Source: a virus. Taken from it: a stretch of 23,581 nucleotides of DNA. The position numbers were made by a program, and so were the translations under genes. Each line of letters opens with the position of its first letter. The first letter of the stretch is position 1. Shown here in pieces: positions 4,702-14,598 of the stretch. The notes under the pieces are model-generated. The model was not told the DNA's origin, searched no databases, and was given only the letters and a program-made list of their open reading frames with translations. Location: positions 1-23,581 of IMG/VR virus record IMGVR_UViG_3300009474_000015; one strand, written 5' to 3'.

Positions 4702-4931
4702 CAGAGGTTCTCCAGATTGAGCGGGTCCGACTGCTGCTCTTCTCGCAGCTTGGTCAAATAGCCGATTACCTCCTGCGTGCCAATCCAGTGGTCAATCTCC
4801 CGATGGGACATTGAGCGGCCGGGCACATCAGGGAAGATGGCCCGCAGCTTGGTGATCAACTCGTCGGTGACTATCGGCTGTAGCACTTCTGCAGTAGTGC
4901 AGATCAACCTCAGGCTACCGGTGGACTCCAT
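4701..4931 (-). CDS. Conserved-looking small phage protein, unknown function
   Basis: 76 residues, MESTGSLRLICTTAEVLQ... with a helical centre (SMSHREIDHWIGTQEVIGYL) and an acidic end. I do not recognise a domain. The ATG at 4931 is chosen because it lies just inside the end of the exonuclease gene (22-nt overlap), whereas the longer in-frame extension would run antiparallel to no signal and deep into the exonuclease. It occupies the position of T7 genes 6.5-6.7. Its stop overlaps the next start by one base. The coding sequence contains one exact copy of the 12-bp TGCACTACTGCA motif (4890-4901), so it may also host a regulatory site for the structural genes. Confidence 0.65.
   Translation of the reverse strand: MESTGSLRLICTTAEVLQPIVTDELITKLRAIFPDVPGRSMSHREIDHWIGTQEVIGYLTKLREEQQSDPLNLENL
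4890..4901 (-). promoter_or_regulatory. TGCACTACTGCA motif upstream of structural genes
   Basis: Exact 12-bp match to the motif found at 11579-11590 (before RNA polymerase) and 16204-16215 (head of the early region). It lies within the 76-aa gene just upstream of the virion gene block, where T7 phages carry promoters inside coding sequence. Function is unproven. Confidence 0.4.
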
Positions 4932-7957: not shown

Positions 7958-8313
7958 TCCCAGATCACCTTCATGTAGATGGATTGATTTGTTTTTGGGG
8001 TCTTTGTCCAGCGCAAGGCGAGGGTGGGCACCACACCCACCCGGTCGTCGCTCCAGATCAGGCCATTGCCGGCATCGAGCACAGCGCCTGCCATGTTGTC
8101 CAGGTCGCCACGGGCGGGCCCCCTGAACACCAGGCACAGGCAGCGCACGTCGTCGAGAGGGGGGATAGCCCACCACTCGCCAAGGATTGCCCGCACATTT
8201 GCTTTCCAGTCCATGTAGGCCTTGGGCATGTACGGCCGGCCGCCTCTCGGTGAAGACCGGGGCCGGGCCTTGGACATCAACGGAACGCGGAGCTCGAAGT
8301 CGGCGGTGCGCAT
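7954..8313 (-). CDS. RusA-like Holliday junction resolvase
   Basis: 119 residues, the usual RusA length. It contains the RusA signatures SKARPRSSPRGG and YMPKAYMDWK near the N-terminus and RGPARGDLDNMAGAVLDAGN then GLIWSDDRVGVV at about 64-95. The aspartates at about 70, 72 and 89/90 correspond to the metal-binding Asp residues of Escherichia coli RusA. The enzyme cuts four-way junctions and would replace T7 endonuclease I (gp3), which occupies this position in T7 and resolves branched concatemers before packaging. Its ATG shares a base with the SSB stop (TGATG). Confidence 0.88.
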   Translation of the reverse strand: MRTADFELRVPLMSKARPRSSPRGGRPYMPKAYMDWKANVRAILGEWWAIPPLDDVRCLCLVFRGPARGDLDNMAGAVLDAGNGLIWSDDRVGVVPTLALRWTKTPKTNQSIYMKVIWE

Positions 8314-9002
8314 CAGAAGGGCATCTCTTCTGAATCAGCCCCAGCCAGTGCAGCCGGGGCCTCGGCCCGCACCTGGGCAGCCCGTTGCTGCAACCGCTGG
8401 CTCGGGGTGAGCGCCGCCTCATTTTCCTTAACCGAATCGGTGAAGGAATCTGCGGGGGTGTCCACCACGTAGCCGTTCTCCACACCGAACACATCAGCCG
8501 GGGCGGTGCGCTCGTAGGGCACCAGGTCGAGCACCTGGAGGGCCTCAAAGCTGAGGCTCACGCCCTTCTTGCCGAACTTGTCTTCCCAGCCCCAGGCCGA
8601 GAAGGCCACCTTCACCTTGCTGCCGTTGCCGATCAGCTCGCCAGCGGGCCACAGGTTCTTGTGGCTGTCGTAGACGGCCGGGGCCTGGAGCGTTTGCCCC
8701 TTTTTGGTGGTCTCGTTCTTCTTGAAGCGGAACTCCATCAGGCCAGTGGCATTGCCTTCCCGGTCGATCTGCTCCTTGAAGGGCCAGGCGTTCTTGCTGG
8801 GCTTGGCCCCCTCCCCATGGAGGCGGGCAAACTCGGCTTCGATCGTTTGCATCAGGGCCATGGCCGCCTTGCCGCTCTGATCAGCACACCAGCTGATTGA
8901 CCAGCTGCGGGGCTTTTCTTCGTCGAAACGGTCTGGCTCGGGGTCGAAACATTTCGCCCAGCAGGCATCGCCTACGGGGGTTGTCAGCATTTGTCGCGTC
9001 AT
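8313..9002 (-). CDS. Single-stranded DNA-binding protein, T7 gp2.5-like
   Basis: 229 residues, same size as T7 gp2.5 (232). The body is a mixed beta protein consistent with an OB fold, with SKNAWPFKEQIDREGNATGL, NLWPAGELIGNGSKVKVAFS and VSLSFEALQVLDL typical of T7-type SSBs. The end is acidic with a terminal Phe (ADSEEMPF), the tail that recruits replication partners. Two starts are possible: ATG 9002 (MTRQMLTT) or ATG 8990 (MLTTPVGD); neither has a clear ribosome site. It lies directly downstream of RNA polymerase as in T7-like cyanophages. Even though no phage polymerase is in the window, this gene implies phage control of replication forks. Confidence 0.88.
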   Translation of the reverse strand: MTRQMLTTPVGDACWAKCFDPEPDRFDEEKPRSWSISWCADQSGKAAMALMQTIEAEFARLHGEGAKPSKNAWPFKEQIDREGNATGLMEFRFKKNETTKKGQTLQAPAVYDSHKNLWPAGELIGNGSKVKVAFSAWGWEDKFGKKGVSLSFEALQVLDLVPYERTAPADVFGVENGYVVDTPADSFTDSVKENEAALTPSQRLQQRAAQVRAEAPAALAGADSEEMPF

Positions 9003-9021: not shown

Positions 9022-9041
9022 TGTACTCAGCGAACGTAAGG

Positions 9042-9081
9042 CATAGGACCATCGTACGCAAGTCCTAGGACCGTCCTAGGA
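9042..9081. promoter_or_regulatory. CCTAGGAC palindrome cluster (putative operator), SSB/RNAP junction
   Basis: GTCCTAGGACCGTCCTAGG at 9062-9080 contains two overlapping dyads, and CATAGGACC at 9042-9050 repeats the beginning of the related site at 13320. The RNA polymerase stop codon lies inside the palindrome. The same sequence recurs before a winged-helix regulator (13320-13342) and before the 78-aa gene (14578-14596), which suggests binding by a common phage protein, perhaps that regulator. Confidence 0.5.
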
Positions 9082-11523
9082 GAAGCAATAGGGGTTCTGA
9101 CCGATCTCCCCAGGGCACAGGTCACCCACCATTGGCGGTGGCGGAAGCCGCCTAACCCCTGATCTGGCCTTGATTTCAGCCGTGATCTCCGCCAGCCAGT
9201 CGGTCATATACATGGCTCGCAGCTCGTCGTGGAGCGTGTGGTGCAGCCAGTCACATCGCGCTGGGATTGCCGCAAAACAGTCGTGACTTGTCAGCAGCTG
9301 GACCTGATGCGATGCACCTCTGTGAACAACGGCGTGGACCAGGGCCCCGTCAAAGCTGTGGACCAGGTTGGCCGTGATGCTTCTGTTCGTGGCCCTGGCG
9401 CTCAACTCCCCCCGCTCTGGCTTATCCATCAAGGTCTGCCAGCTGGGTGCCCCGCTCAACAGGGTCTGAACCTTGCTGCGCGATGGCGTCAGCGAGCCCA
9501 GCCGCATCGGGAAACCCATTGGCGTGGTCCACTCGATCGACTTCTGCGCTTTCACCACTACGGCCGACACCTTCCGCAGCCAGTCCTGCACCGCCAGGCA
9601 GGGCTGCACCTCCTCCTTAAGCGTGGCCAGCAGCCGCTTGGCCAGGTATCTGCTGGGGCCCAGCAGCTTGCTCTCGTAGTCCCATGGATGCAGCAGGCCC
9701 ACCTCCTGGGTGAGCAGCTCCACCAGCCCGTCAACAATTCCCTGGTACTGGGCGCCGTAGGTGGTCGTCATCACCGGGCCCTTGGTCAGCTTCCGGTCGA
9801 TGCCCAGCTCCAGCCAGAACGCAGCGTGCCGCTGTGAGCGATCGCAACCTGCCTCCAGGTCACCTCGCAGCAACTGCTGCACCCGGGCGGCCACCACTGC
9901 GTAGAGATCACTCGGGCGATCGCCAATCAAGTTGCAGCTCTCGGCAATGCGCCGGTCCCGCACTAGGGCCGACAGGATTCCAGGCCCGCTGGTGGTCTGG
10001 TCGAAACGGATCGGCACCGTGATCGGCTGGTTCGGGTCAGCCAGCCAACTGCGAAAGGCCTGGGCCATCTGCAGGAACTGCCACGGATCCTTGGCCCCGT
10101 CCCATAGCTCCAGCTGGTCGAGGGGGTTCTCGGCCACCGCCACCAGCCGCTCGATGTTGCTGCGCCCCCACTGCAGCCGCTCCTGCCATGTGACGCGGCC
10201 CAGCCCGTAGTGCCCTGCTGCTGCCTTGAGGATCCAGTCAGCTGCGCTCTCGTCACACCGCTCACCAACGGCAAAGTTCACCGCTGCTTTCTCCCAGTCG
10301 GGGCCCTGGTGCGTGGCGTAGCGGTTCGAGCTGTAGACCCGGCCGCGGAAATCCAGGTCATAGGCAAACCAAACCGGCTGGCCCGCCACCTGCTCGCATT
10401 CCCGCAGCGCCTGCTCGATTCGTACCCGCTGCCTCTTGCCTTCCCGCTCGTCGTGCCAGGCCGCGGTCGCCTGCTTCTGCCATGCCTTCCAGGCCTTGCG
10501 GTCCTTCTCATCCTCTGGCCGCGGCGGCGCTGTCACCGGCTCGCGGCGCACCGGGAACAGGTTGGGCAGGTTGGAGTCCCAGGCCTGGCGCTGCACGTCA
10601 ACCACCCAGGGGTCGATGGCCATCTGCTGCTCTTGCAGGGTGTTGATCACCTTCAGGGCAGGGGCCAGCGCTGGCCCATCCAGGTAGCCGAGGTCTCGTG
10701 GCGCACGGCAGCCCACCAGCGGCTGGGTGTTGCTGTAGTGCCCTCCTCCATACAGGCCAGTCCATGGCCGCGGCGGCGCCAGCATCGGCAGCCGCTTGGG
10801 TGCCACAGGCCGGGCCGGGCAAGCCTTGGCCAGGGTCAGCGTTTCGAGGGTGGGCTCCACCATCGGCTGCCGTTGGGAGATATGCACCACCCGCACCAGG
10901 CTGGTCTCGCGCACCACTACATCCAGCAGCAGGGAGCCAACGGCCCTGCGGTCGCCAGCAGTCCAGGGCTCCTGGTTGAAATGCAGCTGGCCCATGACCT
11001 TGGCGCCCACCACCTCCTTCTTGTTGCCGTCTGCTCGCTTCTTCAGCAGCCGCAGCAGATCAGGGCTCCGGTCGTCGATCGCAATGGCCCGCACCTCGTC
11101 TTCTATGCGGCGGCCGATCGTGGTGGCCAGCACGCTGTACCGCAGGCGCCGGGTGAGCGTGTCCAGCACAGCCCCCAGGGCAACAGCAGCGATTGGTGCA
11201 AGTCCCTTGTCCTTGAAGTGCAGCAGCATCGGCAGCGCCTCGAAGTGGGGCCCCGCCATTGCCGGGTTGGCAGCAAACCGGGTCAGCAGGGCGTCGATGC
11301 CGATCTTCACGGCCTCCCCGCAGCAGTCGAACAGCTGCCTCCCGTACTCGGTAGCGCTCTCCTTGCCCTGGGCCACCAGCTTGGCCCGGCTGGCCTTAGC
11401 GCGGTCGCTGGCGGCCTCTATTTGGAGCTCCTCCCGGGATGCTTGGAGCTCGTTTGGAGGAGGTGGAATAAATGCCGTATGCCTGCCGTGTGCGGGAAGG
11501 TCGCTTTTTGGCAGTTTTTCCAC
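9076..11523 (-). CDS. T7-like single-subunit RNA polymerase
   Basis: 815 residues (T7: 883). Polymerase landmarks: DLDFRGRVYSS at about 389-399; FDQTTSG with catalytic Asp about 508 (T7 D537); K581-GPVMTTT-Y589-G, which keeps the K631/Y639 spacing of the T7 O-helix; VHSFDGALVHAVV at about 721; and TSHDCFAAIPA with catalytic Asp about 748 (T7 D812). The terminus YCFS resembles the T7 foot FAFA. All catalytic residues are present, so it should be active and transcribe phage middle/late genes. The start is GTG at 11523 with GAGGTG just upstream; no in-frame ATG lies near. The N-terminal region is shorter than in T7. Upstream are two TGCA-type motifs and the attP region; downstream is SSB. Confidence 0.96.
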   Translation of the reverse strand: MEKLPKSDLPAHGRHTAFIPPPPNELQASREELQIEAASDRAKASRAKLVAQGKESATEYGRQLFDCCGEAVKIGIDALLTRFAANPAMAGPHFEALPMLLHFKDKGLAPIAAVALGAVLDTLTRRLRYSVLATTIGRRIEDEVRAIAIDDRSPDLLRLLKKRADGNKKEVVGAKVMGQLHFNQEPWTAGDRRAVGSLLLDVVVRETSLVRVVHISQRQPMVEPTLETLTLAKACPARPVAPKRLPMLAPPRPWTGLYGGGHYSNTQPLVGCRAPRDLGYLDGPALAPALKVINTLQEQQMAIDPWVVDVQRQAWDSNLPNLFPVRREPVTAPPRPEDEKDRKAWKAWQKQATAAWHDEREGKRQRVRIEQALRECEQVAGQPVWFAYDLDFRGRVYSSNRYATHQGPDWEKAAVNFAVGERCDESAADWILKAAAGHYGLGRVTWQERLQWGRSNIERLVAVAENPLDQLELWDGAKDPWQFLQMAQAFRSWLADPNQPITVPIRFDQTTSGPGILSALVRDRRIAESCNLIGDRPSDLYAVVAARVQQLLRGDLEAGCDRSQRHAAFWLELGIDRKLTKGPVMTTTYGAQYQGIVDGLVELLTQEVGLLHPWDYESKLLGPSRYLAKRLLATLKEEVQPCLAVQDWLRKVSAVVVKAQKSIEWTTPMGFPMRLGSLTPSRSKVQTLLSGAPSWQTLMDKPERGELSARATNRSITANLVHSFDGALVHAVVHRGASHQVQLLTSHDCFAAIPARCDWLHHTLHDELRAMYMTDWLAEITAEIKARSGVRRLPPPPMVGDLCPGEIGQNPYCFS

Positions 11524-11535
11524 TGCACCTCTGCA
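11524..11535. promoter_or_regulatory. TGCACCTCTGCA motif at RNAP start
   Basis: A member of the TGCA-N4-TGCA family directly abutting the GTG start of the RNA polymerase gene. On the minus strand it includes GAGGTG, which can double as the ribosome site. A second copy lies 55 bp upstream. Confidence 0.4.
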
Positions 11536-11578
11536 CGGTTGGTCAGTCCCTATCTAACCGCAGGGCTGCCAAGTGTTT

Positions 11579-11590
11579 TGCAGTAGTGCA
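11579..11590 (-). promoter_or_regulatory. TGCACTACTGCA motif between attP and RNAP
   Basis: Identical 12-mer to 4890-4901 (same strand) and 16204-16215 (opposite strand). It is placed just downstream of the tRNA-Leu fragment on the minus strand, upstream of RNA polymerase. Confidence 0.45.
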
Positions 11591-11594
11591 GTAT

Positions 11595-11645
11595 GGCGAA
11601 ACGGATTTTAAGTCCGCTGCGTCTGCCAATTCCGCCATGCCCCCG
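11595..11645 (-). other. attP core candidate: 5' part of tRNA-Leu(UAA)
   Basis: The minus strand reads GGCATGGCGGAATTGGCAGA then CGCAGCGGACTTAAAATCCG, the 5' acceptor end, D-arm and anticodon arm of a bacterial tRNA-Leu with anticodon UAA (stem CGGA/TCCG, loop CTTAAAA). After the anticodon arm there is no variable arm or T-arm, so it is a fragment and not a tRNA gene. It lies between RNA polymerase and integrase. Cyanophage P-SSP7 is known to carry a similar match to part of a host tRNA-Leu next to its integrase, so this is most likely the crossover site for integration into that host gene. Confidence 0.85.
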
Positions 11646-11765
11646 CGTTGCGCTGGAAGGGATCTCGGGGTTTTCGCAGGATGCGGCGGGGTGCCGATCA
11701 AGCGAATATCCGCATCGAATCCGCATCCCAAAGCTACCCGGTGGATGCTTCCGCTTTGCATCCAC
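11646..11765. repeat. Clustered CCGCATC repeats, possible integrase arm sites
   Basis: About 120 bp without a convincing gene. It contains GGATGCGG at about 11680, two direct copies of ATCCGCATC at about 11707-11727, and GGATGC...GCATCC as an inverted pair at about 11742-11762. Repeated short sites beside an attP core are what tyrosine integrases use as arm-type binding sites; that role is inferred. Confidence 0.45.
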
Positions 11766-11969
11766 TCAATCCCAGAGCTTTGGCCGGGCCGGTTCAGCCC
11801 GCAGCCCGCTGGGTGAGAACGGGTCAATGCGCAGCCGAACCCCGTGGGGGTCGGTCTTGCTCGGCACGGTGCAGCCGGTCAGCGGCATGTTCTCCGGCGT
11901 TATCTCCATGCCGTTGTTCCACCCGCAGGCCGGCCCAGACAGCTGGGCCAGCAGCATTAGCTCAACCAT
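11766..11969 (-). CDS. Small protein downstream of integrase, unknown
   Basis: 67 residues, MVELMLLAQLSGPACGWNNG then MEITPENMPLTGCTV..., with a short hydrophobic start and two Cys. It could be a secreted or lipid-modified peptide (LSGPAC resembles a weak lipobox), but this is uncertain. It begins 3 nt after the integrase stop, in the same TGAGCCATGG junction that links 15948-15706 to 15702-15520, which supports it as a real operon member. Position next to attP hints at an excisionase or other accessory, but no HTH is visible. Confidence 0.5.
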   Translation of the reverse strand: MVELMLLAQLSGPACGWNNGMEITPENMPLTGCTVPSKTDPHGVRLRIDPFSPSGLRAEPARPKLWD

Positions 11970-11972
11970 GGC

Positions 11973-12962
11973 TCAGGCCTCCAGCGCAGCGACGCAGGCG
12001 GCCAGCGCCCCGGTCTGCAGGTGCATGTACCTCTGAACCGCTGCCAGGCTCTCCCAGCCCCCGAAGGCCATCAGCTGGCCCTGGTTCACCCCTCGGCTGG
12101 CCAGCTTGCTGGCGCAGGTGTGGCGTGTGGTGTGGATGGTCAGGGCCTCGTCATCGGCCAGCCCCAGGGCCTCCTTGCCGCTGGCGAAGTGCCGCCGATA
12201 GGTGCAGTAGCTGTAGGGCCACACCCGATGGCCCGGCACGGGCGGCAGGTGCGGCGTGATTGCGTCAATAGCGCGGCGGGTGAGTGGCACCGATCTGGGC
12301 CGCCCGTTCTTGGTGCTCCAGAACGTGACTGTGCCCTGCTTGAGGCTCACGTCCTGGCCCTTGAGCTTCTCGGCTTCACCCCAGCGGCAACAGGTCTCCA
12401 GCAGGAACACCAGCAGATCGGCCGCGGCGGGCTGGTCGATGGCCTGGAAGTAGGCGCATAGGCCGGCCACCTCCTGGTCGGAGAACACCCGGTCCTTGGT
12501 GTTGCGCTTGGTCAGCTGCCGGGGCAGCGATGGCATGACCTCCAGCCGGCCGTGGAGCACAGCGTCGGCCATCATTGCCCGCACTGCTGACACCTTCTTG
12601 TTGATGGTGTCGGGGCGGTTGCCCTTGGCCGCCAGCTTCTGGCGCCAGTCCTGAATCATCGGCGCGGTTATCTCGCCCAGCTGGGTGTCGGCGCCGAAGT
12701 AGTCGAGGGCGGACTGGCTGTAAATCTCAGCCGTGCGCTCGTAGGCCAAGCCTTTCCAGCGAATCCGCAGCGACAGCTCGCGGGCCTCTTTGAGGGTGAT
12801 CCCGTTGCCGGGGCCCGAGGGCCTGGCCAGCAGCTGCTCCAGCAGCTCTCGCTTGACGGCGAGGGCCTCGGCCTTGGTCCTGGCCTTGCGGGTGCGGCGC
12901 ACCCCGTCAACGGTTACATCAGCGATCCAGCCGTCGCTGTGTCGGCGTACTGATCCGGTCAT
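11973..12962 (-). CDS. int: Tyrosine-family site-specific integrase
   Basis: 329 residues. The N-terminal 55 residues look like an arm-binding AP2-like domain (RRHSDGWIADVTVDGVRRTR), followed by a core-binding helical domain at about 60-150 and the catalytic domain. The active-site set is complete: Arg about 193 (CCRWGEAEKL), Lys about 218 (STKNGRPRS), H277-x-x-R280 (HTTRHTCAS), Trp about 303 (GGWESLAAVQ) and nucleophile Tyr about 312 (RYMHLQTG). It should integrate and excise the phage at the tRNA-Leu site about 0.3 kb downstream. The ATG is preceded by the C/A-rich leader repeat, starting 30 nt after the regulator stop, so integrase is probably co-transcribed with the regulator. Confidence 0.95.
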   Translation of the reverse strand: MTGSVRRHSDGWIADVTVDGVRRTRKARTKAEALAVKRELLEQLLARPSGPGNGITLKEARELSLRIRWKGLAYERTAEIYSQSALDYFGADTQLGEITAPMIQDWRQKLAAKGNRPDTINKKVSAVRAMMADAVLHGRLEVMPSLPRQLTKRNTKDRVFSDQEVAGLCAYFQAIDQPAAADLLVFLLETCCRWGEAEKLKGQDVSLKQGTVTFWSTKNGRPRSVPLTRRAIDAITPHLPPVPGHRVWPYSYCTYRRHFASGKEALGLADDEALTIHTTRHTCASKLASRGVNQGQLMAFGGWESLAAVQRYMHLQTGALAACVAALEA

Positions 12963-12971
12963 GGTGGTTTT

Positions 12972-12990
12972 GGTGGTTGGTGGTTGGTGG
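12972..12990 (-). repeat. C/A-rich leader repeat before integrase
   Basis: Minus strand CCACCAACCACCAACCACC, followed by AAAACCACC and the integrase ATG. It stands where a Shine-Dalgarno sequence would be expected, and none is present. One of eight copies of this leader in the window. Confidence 0.6.
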
Positions 12991-12992
12991 CA

Positions 12993-13310
12993 TCAGAGGT
13001 TGGCGATCTGCCGGGCCAACGCCTTGCCTTTGGGGCTCAGCGTCAGCACAAACCGGCGGCCCATCGTGGCGTCGCGTTCAATGTCCACCAGGCCGTGGCC
13101 TGGCGTGCCGTGGCGGTGCGTGTCCGACAGCGATTGCGCGATGCGAGACACCGAGGAAGGCGAGACGCTTAACGCGGTGGCAATCTCCTCGTAGCTGCGG
13201 CGGCCGTGGGTCGCGACCTCCATAAACACCTGGACGTGATGGACGTAAAGGTGCGTCGGGCTGTGGACAGCAAAAGCGTCCAGAGCCCTCGAAAAGAGAG
13301 CCAGATCCAT
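12993..13310 (-). CDS. MarR-like winged-helix regulator
   Basis: 105 residues, MDLALFSRALDAFAVHSPTH..., with a helix-turn-helix at about 38-64 (RSYEEIATALSVSPSSVSRI), a wing region and an ending LTLSPKGKALARQI that matches the MarR pattern LTxKGxALxxxI. It probably controls the lysis-lysogeny decision, given its place directly upstream of integrase. I choose ATG 13310 over ATG 13322 because CCACCAACC, the leader repeat found before many starts here, immediately precedes 13310. A double palindrome (13320-13342) lies just upstream and recurs twice elsewhere, so autoregulation is likely. MarR proteins normally dimerise on such dyads. Confidence 0.8.
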   Translation of the reverse strand: MDLALFSRALDAFAVHSPTHLYVHHVQVFMEVATHGRRSYEEIATALSVSPSSVSRIAQSLSDTHRHGTPGHGLVDIERDATMGRRFVLTLSPKGKALARQIANL

Positions 13311-13319
13311 GGTTGGTGG
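13311..13319 (-). repeat. Short C/A leader before winged-helix gene
   Basis: CCACCAACC immediately before ATG 13310, a shortened copy of the leader repeat. It helps decide the start of the regulator. Confidence 0.5.
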
Positions 13320-13342
13320 CATAGGACTGTCCTAGGACTATG
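13320..13342. promoter_or_regulatory. Double CCTAGGAC palindrome, likely operator of the regulator
   Basis: CATAGGACTGTCCTAGGAC followed by TATG: two overlapping dyads, TAGGAC-T-GTCCTA and GTCCTAGGAC, with outer CATAG/CTATG also inverted. It lies 10 nt upstream of the chosen regulator start. Related to 9062-9080 and 14578-14596. Confidence 0.6.
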
Positions 13343-13492
13343 CCACCTCTGCAACACGACACGGGGCGGTCCCCCGCACTCCTCAAAGAAAACGTCCAGC
13401 TCCTGCCACTGCTGGCCCCAGGGGATCGAAACTGAAGCGATTAAGGCTATGGGCATCGTTTTTAGGTTTCAGTTGTGCAGGTATCCCCGGCA
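13343..13492. other. Intergenic region between the two winged-helix genes
   Basis: 150 bp with no convincing gene. On the minus strand ACTGAA and CGAT pair with ATCG and TTCAGT at about 13430-13473, giving a two-part hairpin with an AT-rich loop. This may be a terminator-like or promoter region for the regulator-integrase unit. Nothing else is recognisable. Confidence 0.4.
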
Positions 13493-13849
13493 CTACTTAA
13501 AGGTTTCGGCTATCAAGCCCTGGCCATCTTTGGTCAGAGATATTTGAAACCCCCTGCGGTGCGGGTGTTTCCTTAGCTCAACCAGCCCAAACGGGCTAGG
13601 CATTGATCGACCTTCCCGCCAGCGGGTGCGGCCCCGCAGCAGGGCGATGGTCCGGTTTGCTGTGCTCCGGTCCATCCCCATCGCGTCGGCCAGGTCGCTG
13701 CCGTGATCGATGCCGCCAGCGATCCACAGCAGGGCCTCGGCGGCCACCAGGGGCGGGTGCCCCACGTGCCGGCCCGTGCTCTTCATGTGGTCGCGGAACA
13801 CCCCGCGCAGCCCCTTGAGCAGGGCAGCTACATCGGTGGGCTGGGTCAT
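13493..13849 (-). CDS. Second winged-helix DNA-binding protein
   Basis: 118 residues. A helix-turn-helix is visible at about 47-70 (GIDHGSDLADAMGMDRSTAN, then RTIALLRGR), followed by a wing with SPFGLVELRKHPHRRGFQIS and an end LTKDGQGLIAETF, again MarR-like. It differs in sequence from the 105-aa regulator, so the two are not recent duplicates, but they could form opposing switch proteins. ATG overlaps the upstream stop (ATGA at 13846-13849). Predicted cytoplasmic transcription factor. Confidence 0.78.
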   Translation of the reverse strand: MTQPTDVAALLKGLRGVFRDHMKSTGRHVGHPPLVAAEALLWIAGGIDHGSDLADAMGMDRSTANRTIALLRGRTRWREGRSMPSPFGLVELRKHPHRRGFQISLTKDGQGLIAETFK

Positions 13850-14130
13850 CGCTGTGTCCCCAGCTTCAGGGCCACCAGGGCCCGGTATCTGGCGGTGTCA
13901 GGCAGCCCGTGGGCGGCCAGCTGCATCTGGATCGCAGTCTCAACGCGGCGCCGCTGCAGCTCGGCCACCGCTCTGGCCTTGCTGCGCTCTGCTGCTTTGA
14001 CCTCAGCAGGGCGGAAGCGGCGGGCAATGGCCCAGCCCAGCCCCAGCACCAGCCCCAGGGGCCAGAGGAAGGCCACCGGGATCAGAGCAAGCGGCAGGCA
14101 GACCCAACAGAGGGCTTTCAAGATGGTCAC
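13846..14130 (-). CDS. Small membrane protein with basic helical tail, unknown
   Basis: 94 residues. Residues about 4-34 are hydrophobic (ALCWVCLPLALIPVAFLWPL then GLVLGLGWAIARRF), fitting a helical hairpin or two short membrane helices, followed by a basic, Arg/Lys/Ala-rich cytoplasmic helix. The GTG at 14130 is taken as the start because GTGA overlaps the upstream stop by 4 nt; longer in-frame readings overlap upstream genes. Function unknown; membrane proteins in this position may act in superinfection exclusion, but nothing here proves it. Confidence 0.65.
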   Translation of the reverse strand: MTILKALCWVCLPLALIPVAFLWPLGLVLGLGWAIARRFRPAEVKAAERSKARAVAELQRRRVETAIQMQLAAHGLPDTARYRALVALKLGTQR

Positions 14131-14315
14131 GCGATCGCCTCCAGCTTCTGCATGGCGCCGGAGCAGAGCTCGATCGCCTCCTCGGTGTCGGCCCAGGCGG
14201 TATCTCCTGCGGGAAGGGTCTGCACCTGGGCGGCGTGGAGCTCGAGCAGGGCCTGTAGCCGCGGCCGCAGCGTTGCGGTCAGCAACAGGGCCTCGGCGGT
14301 TGTGAATCGTGTCAT
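14127..14315 (-). CDS. Small helical protein, unknown
   Basis: 62 residues, MTRFTTAEALLLTATLRPRL followed by an acidic helix; wholly alpha-helical by eye. No family recognised. It starts 8 nt after the stop of the 78-aa gene and is coupled to the next gene by GTGA. Confidence 0.62.
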   Translation of the reverse strand: MTRFTTAEALLLTATLRPRLQALLELHAAQVQTLPAGDTAWADTEEAIELCSGAMQKLEAIA

Positions 14316-14323
14316 GGCGGTTC

Positions 14324-14560
14324 TCAGTGGAATAGCGGGCCCAGCTGGGCGCCGTCGTTGAACGGCAGCACCCCCTGAGCGGCGAGTTGTTTGGGGTAGG
14401 CGCGGTCGATGGCCTGGCGGGCCTGCTGCTGGGTGCCGTACTGCCCCAGGGCAGCCCCATCGGGCTGGTACGCGGTCACCAGGGGCTGGCCCAGTAGGTC
14501 GGCGCTCTCGGCGAGCGTGTGCCCCCGGTAGATGCTTTGCAGCTGTGCAGCTTGTGTCAT
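14324..14560 (-). CDS. Small protein, unknown
   Basis: 78 residues, MTQAAQLQSIYRGHTLAESA..., with a Gln/Ala-rich middle and a helix TQQQARQAIDRAYPKQLAAQ. The sequence YRGHTL...YQPDGAALGQYGTQQQARQAID resembles small host-type proteins with a short beta hairpin and helix, but I cannot name it. It lies 17 nt downstream of a double palindrome (14578-14596), so it is likely the first gene of a regulated unit. Confidence 0.65.
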   Translation of the reverse strand: MTQAAQLQSIYRGHTLAESADLLGQPLVTAYQPDGAALGQYGTQQQARQAIDRAYPKQLAAQGVLPFNDGAQLGPLFH

Positions 14561-14577
14561 AGGTGAGTCATGGGATT

Positions 14578-14596
14578 GTCCTAGGACTGTCCTAGG
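14578..14596. promoter_or_regulatory. CCTAGGAC double palindrome (putative operator)
   Basis: GTCCTAGGACTGTCCTAGG, differing by one central base from 9062-9080 (GTCCTAGGACCGTCCTAGG). It lies just upstream of the 78-aa gene and abuts a C/A leader repeat. Confidence 0.55.
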
Positions 14597-14598
14597 TG

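Follow-up and report, generated by a model that had tools for sequence, protein, structure and literature searches.

CCTAGG-centred palindromes as candidate operators of a MarR-like protein in integrase-bearing T7-like cyanophages

Introduction

T7-like phages that carry an integrase are common in picocyanobacteria and face a choice of lysis or integration. The stretch of DNA considered here, IMG/VR virus record IMGVR_UViG_3300009474_000015 (23,581 bases; hereafter the window), is a fragment of the genome of one such phage, related to cyanophage S-SRP02. Palindromes built on the hexamer CCTAGG lie at three places in the window: at the junction of the RNA polymerase gene and ssb, before the gene of a MarR-like protein of 105 amino acids, and before a gene of 78 amino acids. 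A preliminary description, made from the letters of the window alone, had proposed that these palindromes are the operators of a lysogeny regulator and form a three-site regulon. Here, we follow the sites through related phages and consider which protein may bind them and with what outcome.

The locus and its three CCTAGG sites

The window contains a gene for a single-subunit RNA polymerase adjacent to a gp2.5-like ssb, the hallmark of phages of the Autographiviridae type, and family matches uphold the assignments previously given to the RNA polymerase, SSB and MarR-like genes (Table 1). The closest named relative is Synechococcus phage S-SRP02 (MW822601), with which the window shares the gene order MarR, integrase, RNA polymerase, ssb, rusA, nrdR, and whose RNA polymerase and MarR proteins are 49% and 47% identical to those of the window. 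A picocyanobacterial host is likely because further relatives sit on short contigs of Cyanobium and Synechococcaceae metagenome-assembled genomes (MAGs).

Table 1. Coordinates of genes and sites in the window.
Feature	Position	Strand	Details
Site 1, putative operator array at the RNA polymerase-ssb junction	9040..9082	-	CCTAGG at 9064-9069 and 9075-9080; degenerate CCTATG (gene sense) at 9042-9047
Site 2, putative operator before the MarR gene	13318..13344	-	CCTAGG at 13331-13336, 20 bp from the start codon, then degenerate CCTATG
Site 3, putative operator before the 78-aa gene	14571..14598	-	CCTAGG at 14580-14585 and 14591-14596
Predicted sigma70-like ssb promoter	9033..9061	-	-35 TTGCGT (9061-9056), 17-bp spacer, -10 TACGTT (9038-9033); consensus match
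MarR-like regulator, 105 aa, proposed binder	12993..13310	-	phrog_9665 'transcriptional regulator', E 6.6e-18
118-aa tandem paralogue, rival binder	13493..13849	-	MarR-like predicted fold
ssb, gp2.5-like ssDNA-binding protein, proposed regulated gene	8313..9002	-	phrog_112, E 2.1e-19
Single-subunit (T7-type) RNA polymerase	9076..11523	-	phrog_414, E 1.9e-136
78-aa gene, proposed regulated gene of the window's lineage	14324..14560	-	matches no family at E 0.001
Divergent RepL/DnaD-like winged-helix gene, 142 aa	16868..17296	+	weak RepL and DnaD matches
Small open reading frame, 48 codons, upstream of the MarR gene and overlapping it out of frame	13313..13456	-	contains site 2; frame open to 13169
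Tyrosine integrase	11973..12962	-	PF00589, E 7.6e-18
5' part of tRNA-Leu(TAA), attP candidate downstream of the integrase	11602..11644	-	partial Rfam tRNA match below threshold

The sequences GTCCTAGGACCGTCCTAGG (9062-9080), CATAGGACTGTCCTAGGAC (13320-13338) and GTCCTAGGACTGTCCTAGG (14578-14596) all stand where the preliminary description placed them. In the window, TAGGACNGTCCTA has three exact copies, none of them outside the three sites, a number never reached in 100 dinucleotide-preserving shuffles (mean 0.00). With at most one mismatch, GTCCTAGGAC occurs at four places, all within the three sites (shuffle mean 0.46); with two mismatches, the 12 places found against a shuffle mean of 7.55 are near background, so that the strong sites alone stand out. 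Read in the sense of the genes (minus strand), all three sites consist of repeated units that open with CCTA and keep an 11-bp register. In site 1, within which the RNA polymerase gene has its stop codon, two exact CCTAGG units are followed in the same register, two periods on, by CCTATG. Judged by sequence, the conserved unit is a palindrome centred on CCTAGG, of which GACTCCTAGGAGTC is the best form. The sequences of the two overlapping dyads noticed earlier are present, but the TAGGACNGTCCTA dyad arises as a by-product when two units stand 11 bp from each other, a distance particular to the lineage of the window. CCTAGG occurs 96, 66 and 100 times in three MAGs of 1.9, 2.4 and 3.5 Mb, so the sites are not a host feature.

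Conservation of CCTAGG in related phages

A profile search of IMG/VR with nine MarR homologues yielded 66 loci, in which the genes for the RepL-like, 118-aa, MarR, integrase, RNA polymerase and ssb products were mapped. Group 1 comprises 29 records, mostly freshwater and redundant with one another, that either carry the genes for the RepL-like and 118-aa proteins or closely resemble loci that do; the window, S-SRP02 and S38C3 (both parts) are among them. Group 2 comprises the remaining 40 records, mostly marine as judged by resemblance to MedDCM phages, among them S31C1 (L015) with its MarR start taken as annotated. The division rests on gene content and similarity and was made after the upstream and junction sequences of a few members were known. 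Excluded from the counts were L001-L003 (parts of the window), L005-L007 (the same contigs as L016, L017 and L025), L008-L010, and L033, L048 and L074 (the same records as L012-L015); L012 and L013, two parts of one phage, count as two loci in the full group-1 figures. Three regions were scored: U, the 80 bp before the MarR gene; J, from the end of the RNA polymerase gene to the start of ssb; and R, the 110 bp before the RepL-like gene.

In group 1, these regions make up 6263 of 401338 bases and hold 92 of the 134 CCTAGG hexamers, where about 0.7 would be expected, and CCTAGG stands alone in this respect among the 64 palindromic hexamers tested. The hexamer is present in 24/27 U, 18/21 J and 15/22 R regions. 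Clustering at 85% MarR identity reduced group 1 to 18 clusters, which still share ancestry and so are not fully independent; with one record from each, U, J and R hold 50 of 82 hexamers (0.5 expected), and the hexamer is found in 15/18, 10/12 and 9/15 of them, respectively. Conservation in relatives therefore bears out the placing of one site at the MarR gene and one at the replication genes behind the RNA polymerase. Before the MarR start, CCTAGG lies most commonly at exactly 20 bp (15 loci) or at 3 bp (7 loci, of the L026 type). Mild enrichment in the same regions was seen for ACATGT, ACCGGT and AGATCT (6, 8 and 6 sites).

The third target requires revision. CCTAGG precedes the 78-aa gene in the window, L004 and L016 only, and these three have none before the RepL-like gene, whereas the third target in the relatives is the RepL/DnaD-like gene itself. 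The product of this divergent gene, a possible replication initiator or helicase loader, is 59% identical in the window to S-SRP02 p013, which is annotated as hypothetical.

The same regions were reached without reference to the MarR protein. Scanning IMG/VR for the exact 14-mer GACTCCTAGGAGTC returned 75 loci; in 12 of them the palindrome lies 16 bp ahead of a MarR-family start (three are contigs already in group 1: L093, L122 and L128), and in three (L092, L099 and L107) it lies in the RNA polymerase-ssb junction. Loci fetched solely through the U palindrome have CCTAGG at R (4/4) and J (2/2) wherever the region is on the contig, and those fetched by RNA polymerase alone (L156, L157 and L161) have it at J. 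Fifty-nine of the other 60 loci gave no match to the query set and were treated as chance; the last, L125, was not counted, having two copies upstream of a distant RNA polymerase in a repetitive stretch with no MarR match. An exact scan with the 17-mer TAGGACNGTCCTAGGAC gave three loci, one of them a relative (the same contig as L005); L009 and L010, with no MarR, polymerase or ssb match, were taken as chance or other repeats. At 8564-8744, the unrelated 51-kb viral contig L010 has palindromes in close succession, some of them TCCTTAAGGA-like and others TCCTAGGA.

The preliminary description held that absence of the sites from phages that keep the regulator would refute it, and part of the family shows such an absence: group 2 has CCTAGG in 0/40 U and 0/34 J regions (0/12 and 0/11 by cluster). 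Taking the conserved MarR start for S31C1 places CCCTAGGG in its U region and raises the U count to 1/40. We read the marine absence as a probable change of operator and not as a refutation because the MarR proteins concerned have a different recognition helix. No marine operator was found among the group-2 loci: the longest word common to U and J clearly exceeded that of random windows only in L042 (fraction 0.02), by a crude test that is not uniformly significant in group 1 either.

The candidate binding protein

The 105-aa protein gives a Pfam MarR_2 match of 22.6 bits, below the cut-off of 27. Its AlphaFold model (pLDDT 85.2) retrieves MarR-family structures in Foldseek, with a best E of 4.5e-4 and query TM values of 0.50-0.72 among the 50 matches listed, and the protein is thus predicted to have the winged-helix MarR fold. 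Residues Ser55-Arg56 are invariant in 32 homologues and align with Ser66-Arg67 of pMarR from the cyanophage P-SSP7. In loci with CCTAGG, the last residues of the recognition helix are VSR, and in most an H/N-R-x-G motif comes next; most group-2 MarR proteins have ASR and a different loop. The VSR core of the helix alone does not appear to fix the operator because group-2 proteins of the L045 type have VSR in loci that lack CCTAGG.

A predicted promoter between RNA polymerase and ssb

Promoters were sought as a -35 element resembling TTGACA and a -10 element of the form TAnnnT, 16-18 bp apart. In the window, the units of site 1 adjoin the -35 element of the predicted ssb promoter and occupy its 17-bp spacer. 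Sigma70-like matches, all with a 17-bp option, are present in 18 of 28 junctions, compared with 6.9 expected from mononucleotide shuffles. Where a junction holds CCTAGG, the centre of one site mostly falls 5 to 8 bp ahead of the -35 element, counted to its first base; a second, where present, usually has its centre 15 to 17 bp beyond that base, which is within the spacer.

A proposed replication switch and its alternatives

Taken together, these observations make it probable that the palindromes are operators through which the 105-aa MarR-like protein of the phage represses its replication genes and its own gene. A dimer of the protein would bind the CCTAGG-centred palindrome, and binding may be cooperative, either between tandem units that share a face of the helix or between a pair some 23 bp apart. 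Protein bound between the RNA polymerase gene and ssb would prevent host RNA polymerase from reaching ssb and the replication genes that follow because the sites overlap the predicted host sigma70 promoter. Repression seems the likeliest outcome there since the sites abut the -35 element and fill a spacer of normal length. In most relatives, a second pair of CCTAGG units would restrain the divergent RepL/DnaD-like gene. The lineage of the window may have lost the R site or never had it, and the array before the 78-aa gene, from which genes run downstream toward the 118-aa, MarR and integrase genes, would take its place. The U site would provide autoregulation. The switch would therefore act on the replication genes and on its own synthesis, and not directly on the RNA polymerase gene. 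Of the regulon first proposed, what stands is that the sites behave as conserved operators at the MarR and replication genes; the binding unit and the third target have changed.

The protein most likely to compete for this role is the 118-aa tandem paralogue, which might bind CCTAGG by itself or in a heterodimer with the 105-aa protein. Its predicted structure is MarR-like, the homologue in L026 matches phrog_9665 (8e-5), and its gene is found in nearly all CCTAGG loci; L057 lacks both the 118-aa gene and CCTAGG, but this locus also has a MarR protein of marine type and so does not discriminate. The recognition-helix region of the 118-aa protein varies widely among phages with identical CCTAGG sites. 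We favour the 105-aa protein as the best candidate because its recognition helix, with the VSR core, is kept wherever CCTAGG occurs, unlike that of the paralogue, for which we consider a binding role improbable. The RepL-like protein is a less likely binder: the window, L004 and L016 have its gene with no CCTAGG before it, and L057 has the gene with none in any of the three regions. That the sites might instead be promoters of the phage RNA polymerase or arm sites of the integrase is suggested by their recurrence at a small number of positions: one follows the RNA polymerase gene, and others are close to the integrase operon. T7-type promoters are asymmetric, however, and the CCTAGG units are symmetric; they also overlap a sigma70-like promoter and are concentrated at just three genes, with no CCTAGG between integrase and RNA polymerase in any of 23 loci; we give this explanation very little weight. 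It is just as hard to credit that the MarR-upstream site is kept merely because it encodes Pro-Arg. Site 2 does lie in frame within a conserved open reading frame of 48 codons, unannotated in the phages (the S-SRP02 equivalent precedes p020); among the 23 loci listed, 18 have 48 codons of this frame ahead of the MarR start. Moreover, coding conservation alone can preserve the hexamer, a caution for site 2: CCTAGG is kept inside the terminase gene of eight closely related loci (L011 at 7063 and seven relatives), about 1345 bp from the RepL-like start, where it could be coding or a further site. However, codon choice at site 2 is far more uniform than elsewhere in the small reading frames of the 23 loci (CCT for Pro in 18/21 versus 12/46; AGG for Arg in 19/20 versus 18/131), which exceeds what the protein would require and points to a constraint at the DNA level, and CCTAGG also clusters at two further, mostly non-coding regions.

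A more serious challenge concerns the direction of control. The regulator could activate from these sites, recruiting host RNA polymerase in the manner of P-SSP7 pMarR, in which case the sites would time early and middle gene expression. Passages of PMC9692554 describe how pMarR, a member of the same family, binds downstream of the start site of a host promoter, interacts with host RpoA and raises expression, and no clear promoter was found at the U site or at site 3. At the ssb promoter, by contrast, the filling of the spacer by one site and the apposition of the other to the -35 element is an occluding arrangement, and we regard activation as unlikely, if somewhat less so than binding by the paralogue. 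Beyond the precedent of pMarR and the lack of clear promoters at two of the sites, several other results weigh against autogenous repression by the 105-aa protein. The strict promoter criteria fail in 10 of the 28 junctions, which by eye have TTG at the same place and a poorer -10 element; L057 and L063 have both MarR and RepL-like genes and no CCTAGG at U, J or R; and since nearly all CCTAGG loci possess both the MarR and the 118-aa genes, presence and absence cannot distinguish the two proteins.

Repression by the 105-aa protein would also allow a broader and more tentative proposal, which we consider possible at somewhat less than even chances: that these phages have an undescribed repressor-operator switch that spares the RNA polymerase gene, shuts off the ssb operon and the RepL/DnaD-like loader through host sigma70 promoters, and regulates itself. 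The resulting arrest of replication would suit a transient integrated or carrier state, and the protein would be a repressor of lytic genes of a kind that, according to passages of PMC8776855, was not found in marine T7-like cyanophages. If this is true, the switch targets replication and not the phage RNA polymerase gene, unlike the current proposal for such phages. The defined operator, the predicted ssb promoter and the isolated relative S-SRP02 make the model directly testable at the bench.

Comparison with known systems

P-SSP7 pMarR (PSSP7_011, gp0.7), from a T7-like cyanophage of Prochlorococcus, belongs to the same family (phrog_9665, E 1.9e-48), is 33% identical to the 105-aa protein, and is likewise encoded before the integrase and RNA polymerase genes. 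The Ser-Arg pair that it needs for DNA binding, as reported in passages of PMC9692554, is kept in the 105-aa protein. In the same passages pMarR activates a host gene and gives multiple footprints, unlike the repressor proposed here, and the operators of P-SSP7 itself are not described in them. Other MarR-family repressors (SlyA, MarR and OhrR) resemble the proposed system in their winged-helix fold and short palindromic operator and differ in operator sequence; the 12-bp site of SlyA, for example, is given in part of PMC9692554 as TTAGCAAGCTAA.

That MarR proteins control temperate T7-like phages has already been proposed (PMC10134795, in the passages available). These passages concern LUZ100, a T7-like Pseudomonas phage with temperate features, in which a MarR-like gene and an integrase gene form an operon before the RNA polymerase gene, as they do here, and the MarR protein is proposed to control lysis versus lysogeny; its binding sequence is not given in them. 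Repression is hypothesised there at the RNA polymerase promoter, whereas the sites in the clade of the window are at the ssb, RepL-like and MarR genes. Temperate T7-like phages of Agrobacterium (Boeckman et al., 2022, as cited in a passage of PMC10134795) share the idea of MarR sites that flank a promoter, although theirs is again the RNA polymerase promoter. S-SRP02 has CCTAGG at U, J and R, with operator flanks ACTCCTAGGAGT; it differs from the window in having an R site and no equivalent of site 3. The main text of the S-SRP02 paper as available (PMC8790148) contains none of the terms promoter, repressor and palindrom. In the open-access literature searched, subscription papers apart, we found no description of CCTAGG operators in these phages. 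What is new is thus the operator, together with its targets and the finding that the RNA polymerase gene appears to be spared.

Integration and the lysogenic state

Downstream of the integrase gene, the tRNA-Leu fragment matches tRNA-Leu(taa) of one of three cyanobacterial MAGs at 41 of 43 bases, and integrase and fragment together suggest that the phage may integrate. A survey of 300 genomes from the host family revealed no integrated prophage belonging to this clade. RNA polymerase matches were obtained in 25 of these genomes; the close ones (G001, G002 and G050) lie on short contigs, and the remaining loci inspected show 22-26% identity, with no MarR or integrase match in the short stretch examined. 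Such distant T7-type RNA polymerases (L162-L178) occur in many genomes of the cyanobacterial family, some on long contigs, and possibly belong to other prophage lineages. Passages of PMC8776855 report that marine T7-like cyanophages integrate with no stable lysogens formed, and that a search for homologues of known repressors in them found none. The lack of prophages in the genomes searched and the absence of stable lysogeny in marine relatives are consistent with a switch that may serve a transient, integrated or delayed state. The name 'lysogeny regulator' is therefore no more than provisional.

Other repeats in the window

Two further repeat families were seen. Inverted repeats of the form TGCA-N4-TGCA occur at 4890, 9009, 11524, 11579, 14538, 16204, 16244 and 21491, several of them right at gene starts (ssb and RNA polymerase). 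In 20 group-1 loci, a spacing of 4 is the commonest for this repeat (59 occurrences, versus 0-37 for the other spacings of 0-12), and the repeat could serve as a second operator or fold into an RNA hairpin at start codons. The sequence GGTTGGTGG (CCACCAACC in gene sense) has 10 copies in the window between 12975 and 17568 and precedes many early genes; CCACCAACC has 9 copies in L016, 10 in L027, 1 in S-SRP02 and 0 in L024 and L032.

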